Source: a virus. Taken from it: 47,445 bases of DNA. The position numbers and the translations under genes were made by a program. The stretch spans positions 1 to 47,445 of the IMG/VR virus record IMGVR_UViG_3300043219_000109; one strand, 5' to 3'. Below are positions 9,921-47,445 of this stretch, in pieces (position 1 is the stretch's first letter; each line of letters opens with the position of its first letter). The notes under the pieces were generated by a model. It did not search any database, was not told the origin of the DNA, and saw only the letters and a program-made list of their open reading frames with translations.

Positions 9921-9931
9921 AGAGCCTCCAT

Positions 9932-9967
9932 AAAAGAAAGACCCGAATAACCTTAGCTATCCGAGCC
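9932..9967 (-). terminator. Terminator/attenuator ahead of the lysis operon
   Basis: On the minus strand a 12-bp stem (9956-9967 with 9940-9951, including G-T pairs), a TAAG loop and the T-rich run TTTCTTTT follow. It lies about 33 bases after the predicted start of the promoter at 10007-10036 and just before the first lysis gene, so it can act on both the upstream unit and this promoter. Confidence 0.8.
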
Positions 9968-10006
9968 ATAATGTCGAACAACTAATGCTATCATAAATTT
10001 AATTTG

Positions 10007-10036
10007 ATTATACACTATATGTAGTGCTATTGTCCA
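10007..10036 (-). promoter_or_regulatory. Promoter of the lysis operon with palindromic spacer
   Basis: Minus strand TGGACA (10036-10031), an 18-bp spacer and TATAAT (10012-10007). The spacer holds the inverted repeat CACTA-CATA-TAGTG, a likely operator. The predicted start is near 10000, so the first structure transcribed is the terminator at 9967-9932. Confidence 0.65.
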
Positions 10037-10037
10037 T

Positions 10038-12009: not shown

Positions 12010-12090
12010 TTATACATAAGCTATTATTACAGCTATAAATAAACCAACACAAACACCGTTTAAAAACATAGTAATATTTGTATTCTTCAT
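12010..12090 (-). CDS. Membrane micro-protein (26 aa)
   Basis: AGGAGAT precedes the ATG by five bases. The 26 residues are nearly all one hydrophobic helix (TMFLNGVCVGLFIAVIIAYV). It is the first securely translated gene after the long leader. Confidence 0.5.
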   Translation of the reverse strand: MKNTNITMFLNGVCVGLFIAVIIAYV

Positions 12091-12123
12091 ATCTATCTCC
12101 TATAAAAATAATTAATAATACAA

Positions 12124-12207
12124 TCAGTACCAGCCATATATACTAACTATTACTTTTACAATCATGTAGAGCATACTACCTAAAACACCAGCAAGAATTA
12201 GGAACAC
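12124..12207 (-). CDS. Possible membrane micro-protein (27 aa)
   Basis: A GTG-initiated frame of 28 codons encodes one hydrophobic segment (FLILAGVLGSMLYMIVKVIV). No well-spaced ribosome site precedes the GTG. It begins six bases after the conserved hairpin at 12213-12231, so it may only be translated under special conditions, or not at all. Confidence 0.3.
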   Translation of the reverse strand: MFLILAGVLGSMLYMIVKVIVSIYGWY

Positions 12208-12212
12208 CCCAA

Positions 12213-12334
12213 AAGCTATTTAATTTAGCTTAATCGGCTTGACGGTTATCAATAGAACCTCACTATATTAACTTTGGCATACTTATTGGTCTAATTCCCT
12301 TGCGGTAGGCTCACCACCTCATACTCACCTGTTT
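12213..12334 (-). ncRNA. Structured leader RNA element A
   Basis: This lies in a ~440-nt leader (predicted start near 12534, first secure gene at 12090). It shares with 46421-46534 an identical 18-base box (12317-12334), the block AAGCCGAT (12240-12233) and a closing hairpin (12213-12231) with the same seven-base loop AATTAAA. Its stem differs from that of the other copy by compensating changes. Upstream in the leader a perfect 9-bp long-range stem joins 12466-12474 and 12398-12406. No reading frame is conserved between the copies, so a structured RNA is the best explanation. Confidence 0.6.
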
Positions 12335-12540
12335 CCATGTTTAGTGTCCCGTCTTATATACTACCCAGACAGTCAAAGGGTATAAATAGAAAAAAGCTAT
12401 ATTAACCTCTCTTCTTTATGCTATCACCCATAAACACCGCCACTACTTAATAAACGATTAGAAAAGTTAATATAACTCTCTGTATTTTAAAGTAGCTCTG
12501 TTGTCATTGTATAGAGGTGATAAATCTCTTTGACCCTTAA

Positions 12541-12569
12541 ATTATACTATTGATATTAAAAATAGTAAA
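12541..12569 (-). promoter_or_regulatory. Promoter of leader-A operon
   Basis: Minus strand TTTACT (12569-12564), 17-bp spacer, perfect TATAAT (12546-12541). It is divergent from the plus promoter at 12617-12646. Confidence 0.65.
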
Positions 12570-13818: not shown

Positions 13819-14112
13819 ATGAAAGTATTGATTATATTAGTTGTGTTGTTTATGGGGTGTGCTTTGGATCAGGAGTATTACGATTATGGCAAATGGAAAG
13901 GGCTGAGTTCTTTTACTTTTGTAGATGACAATATACTTATAGAGAGTAATAGCACGTCTAATAAATATGAATACAAAATTATATCTAGATTTATTTATAT
14001 TGAAAATAACAATGATTGGATATCGTTATATAGAATACATCAATGGACAAAGGATACTCTTATTGTCAGGGAAGAATCAACGTACATATATCATACGTTG
14101 ATTAAATATTAA
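13819..14112 (+). CDS. Phage-encoded lipoprotein (97 aa)
   Basis: Residues 1-14 are a short signal sequence ending in a lipobox-like LFMGC, so Cys14 would be lipidated. The mature domain is beta-rich with many Tyr, Ile and Thr residues (YEYKIISRFIYIENNNDW). Small phage lipoproteins often mask the receptor or block superinfection (T5 Llp is the best-known case); I infer that as a possibility only. It ends convergently with the tail-fibre gene, overlapping by four bases with no terminator between. Confidence 0.7.
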   Translation: MKVLIILVVLFMGCALDQEYYDYGKWKGLSSFTFVDDNILIESNSTSNKYEYKIISRFIYIENNNDWISLYRIHQWTKDTLIVREESTYIYHTLIKY

Positions 14113-15080
14113 TACTTCCAATATGTAACAGTCCCTCCCGTTGCAGAGTCAAAGTTGATAACAACATTTGTTCCATCTGAATATACTGAACCACCACCAG
14201 CACTTGATGACATACTTGTAATCCTATCAGCTCCATGAAGTATATTTATGATTCCAGATGAAGGGTTTGTTGTGACAGTATAATTATATTGCCCTCTAGG
14301 GATAGTAGTGTTTGTTGTCCATGTACCACTTGTAGGTGTAGTAGTAGGGTTTATACCTACATTTAAGCTTAAATTATCTTCATCAAGTGTTGCAAGGGCT
14401 TTCGTTGTTGCATTGTTTTGAGTGTCAAATATATATGAAGAAAAACTAGCACTCCCTAGATTTTTAGCTGTAAACCTACTTGCTCCTGCTTCATGGTCTA
14501 CTGTAGTCAATGCATTTGAATCAACAGTTCTTACAACACTTAATTTATTAAGGAATAATCCATCTTCTTTTAATGTTGCTAATGTTTTGACAGTTGAATT
14601 ATTTTCAGTTTGGAATAAGTATGAAGAATAACTAGCACCTCCTAGATTCTTAGCGATAAATCTACTTGCCCCTGCTTCGTGATCCAACGTTGTTAGCGCG
14701 TTTGAATCAGCAGTTCTTACAACACTAAAAGTATTATTAAGACTCATACCAGTTTCATACATAGTTGCAATAGTTATTACACTCGCACCTTTTGAAGATT
14801 TAAAAGAATATTCACCATAAACCGATCCTGTTCCTTCTCTTGACTCAAAAGCCGTTAAGCCTCCACCCGCTTGAATAGAAAAACCTTGGTTAGTTTGCTC
14901 TGATCTATTAATAATGAATTGAGGTGATACACCTGTTGATTCTATTGTTTTTACATTAAAAAATGTAGCATCTTGATTACGTATATAATCTAAATTATTG
15001 TTTATAGCGTTTGCATCAGCAAAACCCCAACCATCACCAGCCCCGTAGTTTTCTTGTGGAACTATCCATGAAGCACCCAT
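14109..15080 (-). CDS. Tail fibre protein with internal repeats (323 aa)
   Basis: The N-terminus (GDGWGFADANAINNNLDYIRNQ) resembles attachment segments of short fibres. Residues 119-180 and 181-242 are two near-identical copies of a 62-residue unit (SVVRTxDSNALTTxDHEAGA...). A degenerate earlier copy may occupy about 66-118. The C-terminal ~70 residues are Gly/Ser/Thr-rich beta (GQYNYTVTT, SSAGGGSVYSDGTNV). It is the last gene of the structural operon, where host-recognition proteins usually lie. Confidence 0.75.
   Translation of the reverse strand: MGASWIVPQENYGAGDGWGFADANAINNNLDYIRNQDATFFNVKTIESTGVSPQFIINRSEQTNQGFSIQAGGGLTAFESREGTGSVYGEYSFKSSKGASVITIATMYETGMSLNNTFSVVRTADSNALTTLDHEAGASRFIAKNLGGASYSSYLFQTENNSTVKTLATLKEDGLFLNKLSVVRTVDSNALTTVDHEAGASRFTAKNLGSASFSSYIFDTQNNATTKALATLDEDNLSLNVGINPTTTPTSGTWTTNTTIPRGQYNYTVTTNPSSGIINILHGADRITSMSSSAGGGSVYSDGTNVVINFDSATGGTVTYWKY
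14355..14726 (-). repeat. Tandem 186-bp coding repeat in the fibre gene
   Basis: Two adjacent 186-bp copies (14541-14726 and 14355-14540) encode the 62-residue fibre unit. DNA differences are mostly at third positions, so the copies are under protein-level selection. Confidence 0.85.
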
Positions 15081-28962: not shown

Positions 28963-29235
28963 TTATCTCTTAATTCCCATGTTATGTAATATCTTATCCA
29001 TTTCTTCGGGTGTAACTTCTCTTTCTGGTACAGCATTATCCCAATTTAATGTTTTAAGTTCCTCTAAAGTCTCTTTGTCAAACTCAAATGATAATCCACA
29101 ACCAACTCTATGAAAATGATCTACTTTGTTAGGGTCACAAATAAAGCCCGTCTTTGTCTTTGTCATTCTACCCATTGTATTGCAGTCACAGCAATAAGGT
29201 GCATAATTAATATTCTCTCTTAATTTATCTATCAT
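28963..29235 (-). CDS. Zinc-binding small protein (90 aa)
   Basis: CCDC at about residues 15-18 and a distant Cys/His group (CDPN, HFHRVGCG) suggest a zinc ribbon with a long insert. The layout PYCCDCNTMGRM is mirrored by PYCLNCSTMWRL in the 73-residue protein at 39884-40105, so the two appear to be distant paralogs. Its start overlaps the stop of the Rha-like gene. Confidence 0.7.
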   Translation of the reverse strand: MIDKLRENINYAPYCCDCNTMGRMTKTKTGFICDPNKVDHFHRVGCGLSFEFDKETLEELKTLNWDNAVPEREVTPEEMDKILHNMGIKR

Positions 29236-29870
29236 CCTATCTCCTTAACTTTAAACAACGGCTCTAATACAGACTTTATCTCACTATGCTGTTTCTGTAA
29301 TTCTAACATACCTTTAACTAATGTTTCGGCTGTTGCTATCCTCTCACGCATCTCTACGGGTAATGTCTTTCTGTAATCTCCCTTGCCTCCTGTTGATTTC
29401 TTCCAGTCTTGATAGTCCTTCTTAATACCTAAGAACTTGTATACCATTAATGTATAAGTAGAGAATCCGTGATTGTGCATTCTCTCTTGTTCTCCTGACT
29501 CTTCTACGGCATCGGTTAGGGACTTTCTAACCTGTTTAGATATTGCACTAACAACAACCTGCTTATTGATAAAGTCTTTCATTATCATAAAGTCACTAAT
29601 CAATTTAATTCTTAGTTCATCAGTTCTTTTTCTACTTCTTGTATAAGTCAATAACAATAGTATTTGTGGCTCCGTTAATTCTGCAATCTTTTGAGGTCTG
29701 CCTGTTTTGGGTTTATGGGTTTCAAACCGAACAACTCCAAACACCTCTAGTTTAGCTTTATGTGATTCTAAAAGCTCCATTAAATATGTATGCTTCTGCT
29801 CAAACTCTTCTGCTATCCTACGTGTACTAACTGTAGGCTCTTTATATTTGTACTCTACTAAACTATTCAT
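29232..29870 (-). CDS. Rha-family phage regulator, copy 1 (212 aa)
   Basis: Residues 9-100 match the Rha domain: VSTRRIAEEFEQKHTYLMEL, then VVRFET, then ELTEPQILLLLTYTRSRK. The C-terminal ~105 residues (RKSLTDAVEESGEQERMHNHG ... SVLEPLFKVKEIG) are clearly homologous to the protein at 40792-41442. Rha-type proteins are phage regulators implicated in host or immunity control. ATG 29870 has no ribosome site and lies seven bases after the -10 box, implying a leaderless message. It is divergent from the 29970 island. Confidence 0.85.
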   Translation of the reverse strand: MNSLVEYKYKEPTVSTRRIAEEFEQKHTYLMELLESHKAKLEVFGVVRFETHKPKTGRPQKIAELTEPQILLLLTYTRSRKRTDELRIKLISDFMIMKDFINKQVVVSAISKQVRKSLTDAVEESGEQERMHNHGFSTYTLMVYKFLGIKKDYQDWKKSTGGKGDYRKTLPVEMRERIATAETLVKGMLELQKQHSEIKSVLEPLFKVKEIG

Positions 29871-34176: not shown

Positions 34177-35388
34177 TTAAGCCTTAAAATTATACACTGG
34201 TTTTACACGATGCAATATTTCAACTGATTCAGATAGATACTTTTCTACCTCGTTATGATCCTTGTATGCCATTGGAGATTCGTCAAGAGTTGACTCTAAT
34301 ACACATGATGAATATATATCTTTCATAGAATCCCTAAACTCTTCAATATCAACCTCTCTCTTTGCTTGTGAACGTGACATTGTTCTACCTGCTCCGTGTG
34401 GTGCTGAATTGTTCCAATCTGGATTACCTTTACCTTTACCAATAATTAGACCGTCTCGCATGTTCCATGGAATAACAACTAACTCGTCTTTATGTGCAGA
34501 GATAGCACCCTTTCTAACAATATTATCTTTAAGATCTATATAGTTATGTATAGACTCTATTGTTAGTAAAACTTTAGTATTCAAGAAGTCAATAATATTA
34601 TTAGCCATTATCTGTCTGCTTCTGCTCGCATACCTTTGCGCTACTTGCATATGCTTTAAATAGTCTTTAGCTAATTGACCTTCAAGATATTCTAATCCAT
34701 CTCTTTTATGTTTTATAACTTTAGATCTCTTTTTAAGCTTCTCAATTTCTATTTGTATCTGTTTACCTTTTTTATCTCTTTTTATATTCTCTATAAGAGT
34801 TTTCATTTCAGTTTCAGATATAGAAGCTAATGAATATTTCTCAGCTATTTTTTGATGGTACTTAGCAATTTGTAAACCAAAGTTTCTTGATCCAGAATGA
34901 AGAGTAAGCCATAAATCATTATTCTCATCTTGTCCGATTTCTATAAAATGATTACCACCACCAAGAGAGCCAACCGACCTTAAAGCTCTTGTATTATCTA
35001 GCCCTATTTCTTTACATACATCTTTTATATCACATTCCAAGGTTTTCCCAATCTCTTGCTGTTTAGTGTTCATATGGAAACCAGACGGGATATTGTTTTT
35101 TACAAACTCGTCCAATTCTTTAAAATTGATTTCTTTTGAATCTATCTTCAACGATAGCATACCACAGCCAATATCAACCCCTACAACGTTAGGCATAACT
35201 TTATCTGATAACTCGACTGTAGTACCTATAACAGCCCCAGAACCAGCGTGTATATCTGGCATGAATCTAGTTTTACAACCTTTAAATGCTGGATTATTTA
35301 AAAAACCGTATACCTGACTAATTGCTGATTGTTCTACATAGTCCGTAAATATTTTACAATCTGTAAACTCTCCCTTTAATTCCATTCT
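34177..35388 (-). CDS. rtcB: RtcB-family RNA ligase (3'-phosphate / 5'-OH)
   Basis: About 403 residues from ATG 35388 (AAGGAG six bases upstream). Signature residues are present: VGVDIGCGM (metal-binding Cys74), GGGNHF (His about 146), LHSGSRNFG (His about 163) and APHGAGRTMSRSQAK near residue 330, whose His is the guanylylated nucleophile. RtcB joins 2',3'-cyclic phosphate or 3'-phosphate ends to 5'-OH ends with GTP and Mn2+, repairing cleaved tRNAs. The residue 190-240 segment is a Lys-rich coiled coil. It is in one transcript with six phage tRNAs and the portal gene, so tRNA repair against anticodon nucleases is a likely role. Some phages carry RtcB, but next to structural genes it is unusual. 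Confidence 0.93.
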   Translation of the reverse strand, partial: RMELKGEFTDCKIFTDYVEQSAISQVYGFLNNPAFKGCKTRFMPDIHAGSGAVIGTTVELSDKVMPNVVGVDIGCGMLSLKIDSKEINFKELDEFVKNNIPSGFHMNTKQQEIGKTLECDIKDVCKEIGLDNTRALRSVGSLGGGNHFIEIGQDENNDLWLTLHSGSRNFGLQIAKYHQKIAEKYSLASISETEMKTLIENIKRDKKGKQIQIEIEKLKKRSKVIKHKRDGLEYLEGQLAKDYLKHMQVAQRYASRSRQIMANNIIDFLNTKVLLTIESIHNYIDLKDNIVRKGAISAHKDELVVIPWNMRDGLIIGKGKGNPDWNNSAPHGAGRTMSRSQAKREVDIEEFRDSMKDIYSSCVLESTLDESPMAYKDHNEVEKYLSESVEILHRVKPVYNFKA

Positions 35389-35545
35389 ATTCTCCTTTGT
35401 GATTTTCATAATAATACTTTAATGCGTTAAGAATTATATTACCTTTTGTGTCTTTATGATCTGATTTAATTTTGTAATAGTATTTGTCAATATCTGTTTT
35501 CTGTTGATTAGTTTGCATTCGTACTTGCATAGGCGTGACTTCCAT
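35387..35545 (-). CDS. Small basic protein between tRNA-Ser and rtcB (52 aa)
   Basis: ATG 35545, with TAGGAG five bases upstream, is chosen; a longer frame would run into tRNA-Ser. The 52 residues are helical (TDIDKYYYKIKSDHKDTKGN) with Tyr and Lys rich stretches. The stop overlaps the rtcB start, suggesting coupled translation and perhaps a shared RNA-related function. No family is recognised. Confidence 0.65.
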   Translation of the reverse strand: MEVTPMQVRMQTNQQKTDIDKYYYKIKSDHKDTKGNIILNALKYYYENHKGE

Positions 35546-35556
35546 AAAAACTCCTA

Positions 35557-35638
35557 CGGAAGATAAAAGAATCGAACTCTCACGCTTACACGTGGCGACT
35601 GTTTTCAAGACAGATTATCCCCATGGATGCTATCTTCC
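35557..35638 (-). tRNA. tRNA-Ser(UGA)
   Basis: A 7-bp acceptor stem GGAAGAT/ATCTTCC, anticodon loop CTTGAAA (anticodon TGA at 35607-35605), a long variable arm with ACG/CGT-type pairing and T-loop TTCGATT. The long extra arm fits serine. No CCA is encoded. Confidence 0.85.
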
Positions 35639-35644
35639 ATTATA

Positions 35645-35714
35645 TCAGAATGGTAGGAATCGAACCTACATGACAACGCGTCCAAGGCGAGCCGTTACCG
35701 TTATTCACATTCTG
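35645..35714 (-). tRNA. tRNA-Pro(UGG), degenerate
   Basis: Acceptor CAGAATG/CATTCTG pairs perfectly and the T arm GTAGG-TTCGATT-CCTAC is standard. The anticodon loop CTTGGAC gives UGG. The anticodon stem has only three good pairs (CGC/GCG) and the D arm is short, so this gene is the least canonical of the six. Confidence 0.65.
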
Positions 35715-35719
35715 TTTAA

Positions 35720-35791
35720 AGTTCCCTGTAGGATTTGAACCTACGACCATTTACTTAACAGGCAAACGCTCTACCACTGAGCTAAGGAAAC
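35720..35791 (-). tRNA. tRNA-Asn(GUU)
   Basis: Acceptor GTTTCCT/AGGGAAC (one T-G pair), D arm AGCTCAGTGGTAGAGC, anticodon stem TTTGC/GTAAA around loop CTGTTAA, T arm GTAGG-TTCAAAT-CCTAC. No encoded CCA. Confidence 0.92.
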
Positions 35792-35796
35792 ATAAG

Positions 35797-35868
35797 AGCG
35801 TCTAACCGGAATCGAACCGATGCAACCAGATTACAAAACTGGGACTCTACCAACTGAGCTATAGACGC
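35797..35868 (-). tRNA. tRNA-Thr(UGU)
   Basis: Acceptor GCGTCTA/TAGACGC, D arm AGCTCAGTTGGTAGAGT, anticodon loop TTTGTAA (UGU), T arm ATCGG-TTCGATT-CCGGT. No encoded CCA. Confidence 0.92.
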
Positions 35869-35873
35869 AAATA

Positions 35874-35945
35874 TTAAGGAGGCAGGAATTGAACCCACAT
35901 ACACAAGCTTATGAGACTTGCTGCTTACCTATCGCTCACTCCTTA
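35874..35945 (-). tRNA. tRNA-Met(CAU)
   Basis: Acceptor TAAGGAG/CTCCTTA, anticodon stem CAAGT/GCTTG around CTCATAA (CAU), T arm GTGGG-TTCAATT-CCTGC. A CAU anticodon could also be a lysidine-modified Ile tRNA; sequence alone does not settle it. The first pair is T-A, so it is not an obvious initiator. Confidence 0.88.
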
Positions 35946-35951
35946 AAGTAC

Positions 35952-36020
35952 ATCGACGCTAGGAATTGAACCTAGATACTGTGATTCAAAGTCACATATC
36001 CTACCATTAGATTACGTCGA
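35952..36020 (-). tRNA. tRNA-Gln(UUG)
   Basis: Acceptor TCGACGT/GCGTCGA, short D arm TCTAATGGTAGGA, anticodon stem TGTGA/TCACA around CTTTGAA (UUG), T arm CTAGG-TTCAATT-CCTAG. It is the first tRNA of the array, about six bases from the predicted transcription start. Confidence 0.9.
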
Positions 36021-36032
36021 AACGTTAATATA

Positions 36033-40612: not shown

Positions 40613-40795
40613 TTACGCCTCCAATCCCAATAACTCAACGCCATTTATCTTTAAACTCTTTAATGTTCTAAAATCAGTATGATTCATTCTACATCTTTCA
40701 TCATCTTCTACATAGCTTAACTCTTCATTTACAAAATCTAAATCTGTAACAATGTATTCTTTATCACAACATTTACAAATCATTATTGCATTCAT
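40613..40795 (-). CDS. Zinc-knuckle small protein (60 aa)
   Basis: CKCC at residues 7-10 and one later Cys, then an acidic helical part. Its ATG overlaps the stop of the Rha-2 gene, and an AAGGAG lies upstream. Function unknown. Confidence 0.65.
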   Translation of the reverse strand: MNAIMICKCCDKEYIVTDLDFVNEELSYVEDDERCRMNHTDFRTLKSLKINGVELLGLEA

Positions 40796-41442
40796 TTTAA
40801 CTCCTTAATAGTAAATAGTGGTTCTAATACGGATTTAATATCTGAATATTCTTTTTCCATTTCTAACATAGGTTTAATAAGACTTTCTGCTAAATCGATT
40901 CTTTTTATATCTTCCACAGATGCCCAATCCTCTCTGAATCTATTAGGCTTTACTTTCAATTCTTTACATTCTGTTTTGTAATCCTTGAAATCCTCAGTCA
41001 ATCCAGTTAAAGAATAAACCAACCGTGTAAAGTTACTATATCCTTTACCATGCATACGTTCGTTTTCTCCACTCTCTTCTATTGCATCTGTTAAAGTCTT
41101 TCTTGTTTGGATTCCTACAAGTCGAACAAGGTCTTTTGAGTTGATATGTTCACGCATTTTAAAGAACTCTTTAACTAATTGCTTTTTAAACTCAATAGCC
41201 TTTTCATTGTTCCTTAATAATGTTGCAAGAAATGTTGCTTGTTGCTCATTCAATATTGCAACTTTAATGTTTTGTCCACTATCAGAAGATGTGATTCTAA
41301 ATCGCACCTTTCCAAAATCCTCTAAATCTTTTTTATACACTGAACACATTCTATATATAGATCTATGCTGTACATCAAACCCCATAGCCATATCATAAGA
41401 ATAAATTACTGGTACATTTCTTTCTAATTTTATTATTTCCAT
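40792..41442 (-). CDS. Rha-family phage regulator, copy 2 (216 aa)
   Basis: N-terminal Rha-like domain (about residues 10-100: VPVIYSYDMAMGFDVQHRSI, GKVRFRI, LNEQQATFLATLLRNNEK). The C-terminal domain (RKTLTDAIEESGENERMHGKG ... SVLEPLFTIKELK) is homologous to 29232-29870. ATG 41442 is chosen because the -10 box lies five bases upstream, so the transcript would be leaderless; ATG 41457 lies inside the promoter spacer. As with copy 1, it is divergent from a plus-strand island and heads a block of small early genes. Confidence 0.85.
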   Translation of the reverse strand: MEIIKLERNVPVIYSYDMAMGFDVQHRSIYRMCSVYKKDLEDFGKVRFRITSSDSGQNIKVAILNEQQATFLATLLRNNEKAIEFKKQLVKEFFKMREHINSKDLVRLVGIQTRKTLTDAIEESGENERMHGKGYSNFTRLVYSLTGLTEDFKDYKTECKELKVKPNRFREDWASVEDIKRIDLAESLIKPMLEMEKEYSDIKSVLEPLFTIKELK

Positions 41443-41447
41443 AATTA

Positions 41448-41476
41448 AAGATATCATTTGTTTGTATTCTTGTCAA
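41448..41476 (-). promoter_or_regulatory. Leaderless promoter of Rha copy 2
   Basis: Minus strand TTGACA (41476-41471), 17-bp spacer, TATCTT (41453-41448), then five bases to ATG 41442. Divergent from the plus promoter at 41485-41513, eight bases away. Confidence 0.65.
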
Positions 41477-41660: not shown

Positions 41661-42032
41661 ATGAGAGAGATTAAATTTAGAGTATGGGATTCTGGAATAC
41701 CAAAAGACTTAAATGAGTGTATGGATGAGGATACAGAGATAACAGGTAATTATGTTGATTGGGATTACGTTAAAAAATCTGATTATTTAATTGATGGTCT
41801 TGATGGTAAATATCCTATAGAACAATTTACAGGAATAAAAGATAAGAACGGTAAAGAGATTTATGAAGGAGATATTATTTATCTTGCTGGCGTAGGTCAT
41901 GCGACAGTTTTATATTGTGATGAAATAGCTAGTTTCGTTTTTATGCATGATGATATAAATTGGCAATATTGGGAGATCTTAGAGGATAAAGATTCACTTG
42001 AAATATTAGGACACATTCACGACAAGATTTAA
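41661..42032 (+). CDS. YopX-family protein, copy 1 (123 aa)
   Basis: The start MREIKFRVWD, the QFTGIKDKNGKEIYEGDIIY centre and the LEILGHIHDK end define the YopX family of phage proteins, which have an SH3-like barrel and no known biochemical role. AAGGAG precedes the ATG. A shorter paralog lies at 45735-46085. Confidence 0.95.
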   Translation: MREIKFRVWDSGIPKDLNECMDEDTEITGNYVDWDYVKKSDYLIDGLDGKYPIEQFTGIKDKNGKEIYEGDIIYLAGVGHATVLYCDEIASFVFMHDDINWQYWEILEDKDSLEILGHIHDKI

Positions 42033-44450: not shown

Positions 44451-44613
44451 TTTCCTTTAACCTACTGTTTTTTAATATCCATGTATATAAATATTCTTTA
44501 GCATTAAATTGTGTACAAGGTCTTAAAGTTATTGTACTCGCTAAACTTACAAATCTTTTATAGGGTATATCTAATGTCTTAGTATAACCCTTACGGAATA
44601 ACCAGCTTTTCAT
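44293..44613 (-). CDS. Hypothetical protein overlapping the replication gene (106 aa)
   Basis: The unique N-terminal ~55 residues (GYTKTLDIPYKRFVSLASTI, then FNAKEYLYTWILKN) look folded. The overlapping C-terminal half is basic and low in hydrophobics (STTKKTRQVPKRNGYN), as expected of the shadow frame of the replication gene. The ATG lies in the loop of a 10-bp hairpin. It may supply the missing N-terminal part of the replication function, but this is inference. Confidence 0.5.
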   Translation of the reverse strand: MKSWLFRKGYTKTLDIPYKRFVSLASTITLRPCTQFNAKEYLYTWILKNSRLKESERANRIRESTTKKTRQVPKRNGYNERYDNKRFTRVTKDITKAEIRKVLSKQ

Positions 44614-44631
44614 ATCTCTGTAAAGCTGGTT
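44600..44631 (-). promoter_or_regulatory. Hairpin around the start codon at 44613
   Basis: A perfect 10-bp inverted repeat (44622-44631 with 44600-44609) places AGAGAT and the ATG in its 12-base loop. Folding could limit or time translation initiation. Confidence 0.6.
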
Positions 44632-44638
44632 ATCTATT

Positions 44639-45485: not shown

Positions 45486-45738
45486 TTATTTGCCCCTCCC
45501 AATTGTCTGTCATTGACGGCTCGTAATCTTCATCTGATCTAATACATGTCAAGCAAGGATTAACGCAAGCCTTATCTATATCTTTATAACAATTATGACA
45601 GTTTCTTAAATTAAAGCTCTTTGATCTTAATGTTATAACCTCTTCAATAACGCATTGTATCTCTTTGTCAAATGCACCACTACCAGACCATGAACCACCT
45701 TGACAACATAAATTTTCTAATGCTTCATTTATATTCAT
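45478..45738 (-). CDS. Cys-rich accessory protein (86 aa)
   Basis: Opens with INEALENLCCQGGSWSGSGA and ends with CHNCYKDIDKACVNPCLTC, so at least four Cys cluster near residues 48-65. It overlaps the YopX-like gene and the next gene by a few bases. No family is recognised. Confidence 0.65.
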   Translation of the reverse strand: MNINEALENLCCQGGSWSGSGAFDKEIQCVIEEVITLRSKSFNLRNCHNCYKDIDKACVNPCLTCIRSDEDYEPSMTDNWEGQISE

Positions 45739-46085
45739 TTTATCCCCTCATAAATATTACCACAACGCTCTATTTCATTGATAAACTCTGTTATATTTTT
45801 TAGAGGTGCAAACGAACCTAATATTTTATAACAAAACATACCCTCTTTGAATTGTATTTCATAAAAATCTTTATATCCTTTCTGTCTGAAATAATCGCCT
45901 TCATAAAGACGGAATCCTTCACTATCCCAAACCCCTGTAAATTGCATCATAGGCGTGCTAAAATCACCGTCAAAGATTGACATCATACTACCAGCAATGT
46001 ATTGATCTTTCTTTGCTTTACTGTTATCAAAGTAAACCATTTCCTTATTAGCTTCGTGCCATGCTCTAAAATAAAAATCTCTCAT
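45735..46085 (-). CDS. YopX-family protein, copy 2 (116 aa)
   Basis: MRDFYFRAWHEANKEMVYF, the MMQFTGVWDSEGFRLYEGD centre and the CGNIYEG end are the YopX layout, clearly homologous to 41661-42032 but divergent. Having two YopX genes on opposite strands fits the duplicated early-region plan of this phage. Confidence 0.88.
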   Translation of the reverse strand: MRDFYFRAWHEANKEMVYFDNSKAKKDQYIAGSMMSIFDGDFSTPMMQFTGVWDSEGFRLYEGDYFRQKGYKDFYEIQFKEGMFCYKILGSFAPLKNITEFINEIERCGNIYEGIK

Positions 46086-46288
46086 TGTTTCCCCTCTATT
46101 AGTTCTATAGTTAAAGGTGTTACTTCTACAGTATCTTTAAACTCATTCCCATACTCATCTTCCCATTCGTCAATAATATAAGATTTACCGTCTTTCTCGA
46201 ATGATTCACCAATTACCTTATCACCTGAAAAGTAATGATTACCATTCCATTTAACTATACCAATGTATTTTTCTTTCTCATCCTTCAT
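46082..46288 (-). CDS. Hypothetical protein (68 aa)
   Basis: First gene after leader B. A small beta-rich acidic protein (YIGIVKWNGNHYFSGDKVIG, then DTVEVTPLTIELIEGK). Its ribosome site (GGAGG, about nine bases upstream) is at the end of the leader RNA. No family is recognised. Confidence 0.7.
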   Translation of the reverse strand: MKDEKEKYIGIVKWNGNHYFSGDKVIGESFEKDGKSYIIDEWEDEYGNEFKDTVEVTPLTIELIEGKQ

Positions 46289-46420
46289 TTAGTACCTCCA
46301 TACTATTAAAAGTATTCACCTTAACTAGTACCTGTCATTATAGACATATCTCAACTAGCTAGTAGTTTAGCAGACATCCTACTCTTTTATGACCTGAACT
46401 TAAAAGGTAGACTACTCTAA

Positions 46421-46534
46421 GAATTATTTAATTTAACTCTATCGGCTTGGTTCTTTTGGTGCTACAACCCTGACATATTGCTCAAACTAATTTACACATT
46501 CGCGCTAGGTCGTTCGCCTCATACTCACCTGTTT
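46421..46534 (-). ncRNA. Structured leader RNA element B
   Basis: Homolog of 12213-12334. The identical 18-base box lies at 46517-46534, AAGCCGAT at 46448-46441, and the closing hairpin GAGTTA-AATTAAA-TAATTC at 46421-46439. In element A the same stem is AAGCTA/TAGCTT, so three of six pairs changed with pairing kept. It is part of a ~470-nt leader (start near 46759, first gene 46288), whose 5' half also has a long-range stem (46721-46728 with 46662-46669). No open frame of note lies in 46289-46802. Confidence 0.6.
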
Positions 46535-46765
46535 GTTTGATTTACAGTCTAACCATAGAAAACACTGATTAGGAAAGATATTGAAGAAGAGTTATAGATA
46601 AGTCTCATTAATTAAAACAAGACTTTCTACGCTTCTCTTTCACCACGAAAGATAATCAGATGACTTCAGGTATCCGATTTAAAAGCGTACAAAGTCTTAA
46701 AGATATGTACATTGAATGTTCTGAAGTCTGTCTAAATATCAGGCTGGTTAATTCCTAATAAAATA

Positions 46766-47216: not shown

Positions 47217-47335
47217 TTATTCATCTCCTTATAGTGTTCTTCACAAGTCTTTTCATTGTTAAAATTAGGATAGTTCCTAAATACTACTGTTATGATTATT
47301 CCTGCTATTAAGCATATTATTGCCATTAGTTTCAT
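47213..47335 (-). CDS. Small membrane protein (40 aa)
   Basis: The ATG (47335..47333, equal to 17..15) overlaps the HNH stop and the TGA overlaps the next ATG. Residues 3-19 are hydrophobic (LMAIICLIAGIIITVVF), followed by a polar tail (CEEHYKEMNK). It is only complete when the circle is closed. Confidence 0.6.
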   Translation of the reverse strand: MKLMAIICLIAGIIITVVFRNYPNFNNEKTCEEHYKEMNK

Positions 47336-47445
47336 AAGTGCCTCCATGATTTTCTTGAATTTATTCTATTAACAGTACATCTTGCAATGTTAAAATCTTT
47401 TGCAATTGTAATACTCTTTTCGCCATTGTCTTTTCTTCTCCGTAT
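47319..47445. repeat. Terminal direct repeat, right copy
   Basis: Identical to 1..127; see the left copy. It contains the 3' end of the HNH gene and the start of the 40-codon membrane-protein gene. Confidence 0.95.

Follow-up and report, generated by a model that had tools for sequence, protein, structure and literature searches.

Genomic context of the two leaders

The window analysed here is the whole stretch of 47,445 nucleotides of the virus record IMGVR_UViG_3300043219_000109. Its two longest non-coding gaps, of 654 and 514 nt, contain leaders referred to hereafter as leader A and leader B, each carrying one copy (copy A and copy B) of the element described below on the minus strand (Table 1). 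Leader A heads a leftward operon containing SSB, Erf, RusA and HNH proteins. It runs into a previously unlisted ORF (12010-12090) that codes for a small, hydrophobic product, MKNTNITMFLNGVCVGLFIAVIIAYV, and has a good ribosome site. Leader B heads an operon containing an O-like replication protein. These contents do not fit the label of "accessory operons" given in the first-pass annotation of this DNA.

The ends of the record are identical over 127 bp (1-127 and 47319-47445), hence the phage genome is complete and circular (or terminally redundant), with a size of ~47.3 kb. Across the junction, leaders A and B therefore both point leftward. The genome is 89% coding and has a phage gene content that includes an SPP1-type portal, a P22-type coat, four tRNAs and an RtcB ligase. 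The best match of the terminase is ~44% identical, and no close phage relative was found through the terminase, portal, coat, Erf, tail and leader-adjacent proteins. The RtcB RNA ligase gene adjoins the four tRNA genes (Asn, Thr, Met, Gln; 34177-36022), a neighbourhood that suggests phage tRNA repair. A tail-region gene (14109-15080) contains a 186-nt tandem duplication (14361-14732, 74% identical). Two paralogous pairs were also observed, coding for pRha-type regulators (29232-29870 and 40792-41457) and for YopX-like (phrog_98) proteins (41661-42032 and 45735-46085).

Table 1. Positions of the leaders, the core element and the neighbouring predicted signals
Feature	Copy or leader	Positions	Strand	Description
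Leader	A	12091..12534	-	non-coding, from predicted transcription start to first small ORF; within the 654-nt gap
Leader	B	46289..46759	-	non-coding, ahead of ORF 46082-46288; within the 514-nt gap
Homologous core	A	12200..12345	-	from the A-vs-B alignment
Homologous core	B	46408..46545	-	from the A-vs-B alignment
Invariant 18-nt box, AAACAGGTGAGTATGAGG	A	12317..12334	-	5' strand of extended hairpin
Invariant 18-nt box, AAACAGGTGAGTATGAGG	B	46517..46534	-	identical 18-mer
Extended hairpin	A	12270..12333	-	GUAU/GUAU, 4x4 loop, UGGU/ACCA, CC[GCAA]GG
Extended hairpin	B	46466..46533	-	GUAU/AUAU, 4x4 loop, CGAA/UUUG, GCGC[GAAU]GUGU
AAGCCGAT block	A	12233-12240	-	
AAGCCGAT block	B	46441-46448	-	
Terminal hairpin	A	12213-12231	-	AAGCTA-AATTAAA-TAGCTT
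Terminal hairpin	B	46421-46439	-	GAGTTA-AATTAAA-TAATTC
5' folded domain	A	12370..12510 (about)	-	120-nt windows z -3.3 to -3.4; no sequence homology to B
5' domain, three-way junction	B	46620..46700	-	-30 kcal/mol; z -5.4, z -5.1 in sliding scan
Promoter-like site	A	12541..12569	-	TTTACT-17-TATAAT, consensus scan 10/12
Intrinsic-terminator-like hairpin with U tail	A	9940..9967	-	between two genes of leader A's operon

Extent of the homology between leaders

Local alignment of A with B scored 66, against 31.8 +- 4.5 in dinucleotide shuffles of which none in 1,000 did as well, and the longest word common to both is 18 nt long (shuffle maximum 14). Judged by alignment, the homology of A and B is real and beyond chance. 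The first-pass annotation had described two homologous leaders of ~450 nt, which is too strong because the homologous stretch is limited to a core of 130-145 nt. The 5' halves of the leaders show no similarity (127/500 shuffles align as well), that of the 3' halves is marginal (19-36/500), and none is detectable in the spacer between the extended hairpin and CAAGCCGAU.

Within the core, the 18-nt box is identical in both leaders, as had been noted, and occurs only twice in the genome even when 3 mismatches are allowed; no third copy of the element was found in the window. The block common to both leaders, given as AAGCCGAT, is indeed present and in fact reads CAAGCCGAT. The distances from the box to the terminal hairpin, 86 (A) and 78 (B) bases, were likewise correct. 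The box is situated ~200-225 nt past the predicted transcription starts, and the core ends with the terminal hairpin 122 (A) and 132 (B) nt ahead of the first ORF.

No reading frame is conserved between the leaders, in agreement with the first-pass annotation. Each box could nevertheless be read as a ribosome site and start codon (AGGUGA-GU-AUG-AGG) of a translated minigene, coding for the peptide MRW in A and MRRTT in B and acting through attenuation or tRNA sequestration. AGGUGA could base-pair with the 16S rRNA 3' terminus, and AGGTGANNATG is found within the window only at the two boxes, for 0.47 occurrences expected. However, the two peptides differ in length and sequence, the genes of this phage favour GGAG/GAGG (60/100) while GGTG is rare (4/100), and the second hairpin is left unexplained. 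A minigene at this place is highly improbable.

Strand-specific structure of the core

Consensus folding (Alifold) was run on an A/B alignment built from sequence alone, comprising two sequences from one genome. The consensus fold has an energy of -12.7 kcal/mol vs -4.2 +- 2.3 in column shuffles (z -3.64, 2/2000) and is still exceptional when dinucleotide content is nearly held (z -3.16, 1/250 shuffles). The antisense strand gives z +0.95. Some sub-tests were weaker (4/250, 5/250 and 7/250). The asymmetry between sense and antisense, together with the G-U pairs of the sense strand, argues for an RNA made from the operon strand and not for a DNA palindrome. Two-sequence folding, one of the two computational checks put forward in the first-pass annotation, thus yielded a strand-specific structure.

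Most of the structural signal comes from the extended hairpin and not from the terminal one. The 18-nt box forms the 5' strand of the extended hairpin, whose 4x4 internal loop has GAGG facing AUAA or AGCA. Its middle stem, UGGU/ACCA in A vs CGAA/UUUG in B, has double changes in 3/4 pairs, the remaining one being a G-C to G-U change. Segments of 64 nt (A) and 68 nt (B), folded in isolation, adopt the extended-hairpin shape with 10 shared pairs, a number reached in 7/250 shuffles. The terminal hairpin, on which the proposal of a covarying RNA had been founded, has the AATTAAA loop in both copies and keeps 6/6 pairs, three of them changed (two double changes and one G-C to G-U), as described earlier; taken alone it is marginal (24/500 shuffles). 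The proposal itself stands, and is better supported than was then known, since there is another covarying hairpin, to which the box belongs, and only the sense strand carries the signal. In total, 19/19 pairs form in both copies, 6 of them with changes on both sides; when the partners are shifted by 1-3 columns, 0-1 remain.

Folding energies by themselves are ordinary for the core (z near 0) and not unusual for the whole leaders (z -0.69 and -0.41), within which competing folds are predicted. The HK022 put pair was tried as a positive control, but its alignment recovered a palindrome and not the put pair, so it does not serve as one. As modelled, the element is a real, strand-specific, covarying two-copy RNA, its structure being based on two sequences and its P-value moderate.

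Its presence in two copies in one genome, and the fact that the terminal hairpin is also a dyad, could alternatively be accounted for by what is left of a duplicated gene or of a mobile element, or by a DNA site such as an origin or operator, with no function at the RNA level. In another virus (L020), one coding gene contains both the box and AAGCCGAT, similarly spaced, which would fit this alternative; this match lies in an open gene (TGEYEVE), lacks the hairpin and was rejected as a relative, being most likely a coincidence. Conservation in the two leaders is blocky, with 18 identical positions beside a chance-level spacer, unlike what neutral decay would leave, no frame is open, and the signal resides on one strand with G-U pairs. 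A remnant or DNA site without RNA function is unlikely.

Leader 5' domains, promoters and terminators

Upstream of the core, each leader has a folded 5' domain of its own (Table 1), and the long-range stems reported in the first-pass annotation fall inside these domains. Stronger z-scores exist elsewhere in the genome, some of them at terminators. The three-way junction is present only in B; by eye, two of its loops could kiss (UACC/GGUG), and it has no Rfam match. A hammerhead was considered for this junction and rejected, as no CUGANGA core was seen by eye and no Rfam family matched.

Both leaders had been said to follow predicted promoters. For A this is borne out by a site scoring 10/12; for B, nothing reached the scan threshold, and the one weak site was read by eye (TTGATT-17-TACATT, extended -10). 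In this AT-rich DNA, sequences resembling promoters are no more frequent than chance would give. The genome shows no overall excess of terminator-like sites, no intrinsic terminator was found at the 3' end of either leader, and neither a terminator nor an arm sequestering a ribosome site adjoins the core.

These observations bear on the idea that the leaders accumulate as independent structured small RNAs acting in trans. The stability of the 5' domains (z -5.4 in B, -3.3 in A) and the length of the non-coding gaps are in its favour, but no terminator would define a 3' end and both leaders continue directly into the ribosome binding sites of the next genes, which makes separate small RNAs improbable.

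Three other non-coding places were noted. At 9921-10037, a promoter (TGGACA-18-TATAAT) is followed ~40 nt on by an intrinsic-terminator hairpin, possibly constituting a short RNA gene or an operon terminator. A 349-nt non-coding gap at 2309-2657 precedes an HTH/CII-like gene (2051-2308); it folds stably (z -4), has a promoter close to consensus (TTGACA-17-TATAGT) and is unlike leaders A and B. A 13-bp inverted repeat at 44597-44634, near the O-like replication gene, has the second strongest z-score of the genome (about -7) and is a possible replication origin or operator.

Search for relatives

At the curated threshold, the only Rfam matches within the window are the four tRNAs; at E up to 10, nothing plausible matched the leaders, the sub-threshold hits being implausible. 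Four patterns searched in IMG/VR yielded no relative. Among the matches listed for the gapped and hairpin patterns, all are attributable to chance, and the best other stem has 5/6 pairs. The exact 16-mer of the box has many matches in IMG/VR and GTDB genomes, which were set aside as those inspected read as protein-coding. Covariance models detected no relative over 66 viral records and 78 further loci, one match (G006) falling in a coding region, and blastn detected none among annotated phages. In HK022, a covariance model (R2) run with filters off gave a best score of 12.2 bits (E 0.42), inside the repressor gene.

No relative was found either in ~1,450 bacterial genomes, drawn in samples around Clostridiaceae, Ornithinibacillus, Sulfurovum and Veillonella (with possible overlap, and with stricter filters), though this negative is weak. 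Three model matches in Clostridia (28-30 bits) were rejected on their alignments, which lie in or across open genes and miss the box structure.

The covariance-model search of phage genomes and Rfam, the other check put forward in the first-pass annotation, thus returned no relative. A new RNA family would have members in several genomes with the pairing retained, and here there are two members in one genome, so that speaking of a phage RNA family was premature. The element is an orphan, with no copy outside this genome in the collections searched.

Possible role in transcription elongation

The element probably controls the transcription of two early gene blocks. Our tentative preference, at less than even confidence, is that A and B are diverged copies of a new orphan cis-acting leader RNA that most likely acts on elongation, as put or nut do. 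An elongation-acting cis element would fit the two diverged copies, their matched positions, the lack of an expression platform by the core and the placement ahead of recombination and replication genes. The core would be transcribed as part of two early-operon 5' leaders, that of the recombination genes (SSB, Erf, RusA, HNH) and that of the O-like replication gene. Once made, the folded core would be recognized either by RNA polymerase itself, as for HK022 put, or by a phage or host protein, as for lambda nut, and the elongating complex would then resist pausing and termination. Both early blocks could in this way be read to their ends and switched together. The invariant unpaired boxes may serve as contact sites, and the stems, conserved in shape and not in sequence, as a scaffold. 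The plausible intrinsic terminator between genes of A's operon (Table 1) speaks for antitermination. Among the early proteins scanned, many are orphans and none matches a PHROG antiterminator.

As antitermination is deduced from anatomy, the main rival is a conventional cis-regulatory leader, in which a phage or host protein or a ligand would bind the core and control translation or premature termination of both operons in parallel, like ribosomal-protein leaders and riboswitches. The presence of a structured core in both 5' leaders of the phage, at a similar distance from the first ORF, would also fit this rival. It is nonetheless somewhat doubtful, given that the core has neither a terminator nor a ribosome-site-sequestering arm beside it, stands >120 nt from the start codon and has no match in Rfam.

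A stronger form of the elongation reading, namely a put-like RNA that alone makes RNA polymerase resistant to termination and that evolved with another fold, in an unrelated phage, independently of lambdoid put, is quite unlikely. To our knowledge, HK022 and its relatives are the main source of phage RNAs known to act on RNA polymerase with no dedicated protein. If true, a second, unrelated protein-free RNA design would mean that this solution arises repeatedly, and would offer a fresh handle on RNA control of elongation. Even as an ordinary regulatory leader, the element is a defined and testable structured RNA in a lineage without close relatives, and its two diverged copies in one genome provide a built-in replicate.

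Comparison with known systems

Riboswitches and ribosomal-protein leaders share with the element a structured 5' leader and covarying stems; the element differs from them in having no Rfam match and no expression platform seen by the core.

The nut sites of phage lambda occur as two copies in early leaders, each consisting of a linear boxA closely followed by a boxB hairpin with an A-rich loop, and they use an N-type arginine-rich antiterminator encoded in an early operon. The present element resembles them by its two early-leader copies and by the combination of a conserved linear box with a hairpin whose loop is A-rich. In contrast to the single-stranded boxA, its box is 18 nt long, takes part in a hairpin and is separated by 78-86 nt from the second one, and no N-like protein was recognized among the early proteins scanned. 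Box spacing and pairing thus place it outside nut.

The put RNAs of phage HK022 suppress pausing and termination via the zinc-binding domain of RNA polymerase. HK022 also has its erf and O genes in the early region. putL and putR are two similar RNAs of ~70 nt, each made of two stem-loops, located behind the early promoters and suppressing termination without a dedicated protein, putR lying ~270 nt from its start site (PMC9378689). The element differs from put in its sequence, with no model match in HK022, in its host phage, which is unrelated, in its size, with a core of 130-145 nt vs ~70 nt, and in its hairpins, which a spacer separates whereas the put stem-loops are adjacent; by sequence, size and hairpin spacing it is not a put RNA. 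The two systems nevertheless have in common two similar RNAs per genome with two stem-loops each, one copy in each of two early operon leaders (behind promoters that are here predicted), a comparable position (box ~200-225 nt from the predicted starts vs ~270 nt for putR), and a location in the leaders of recombination (erf) and replication (O) operons.
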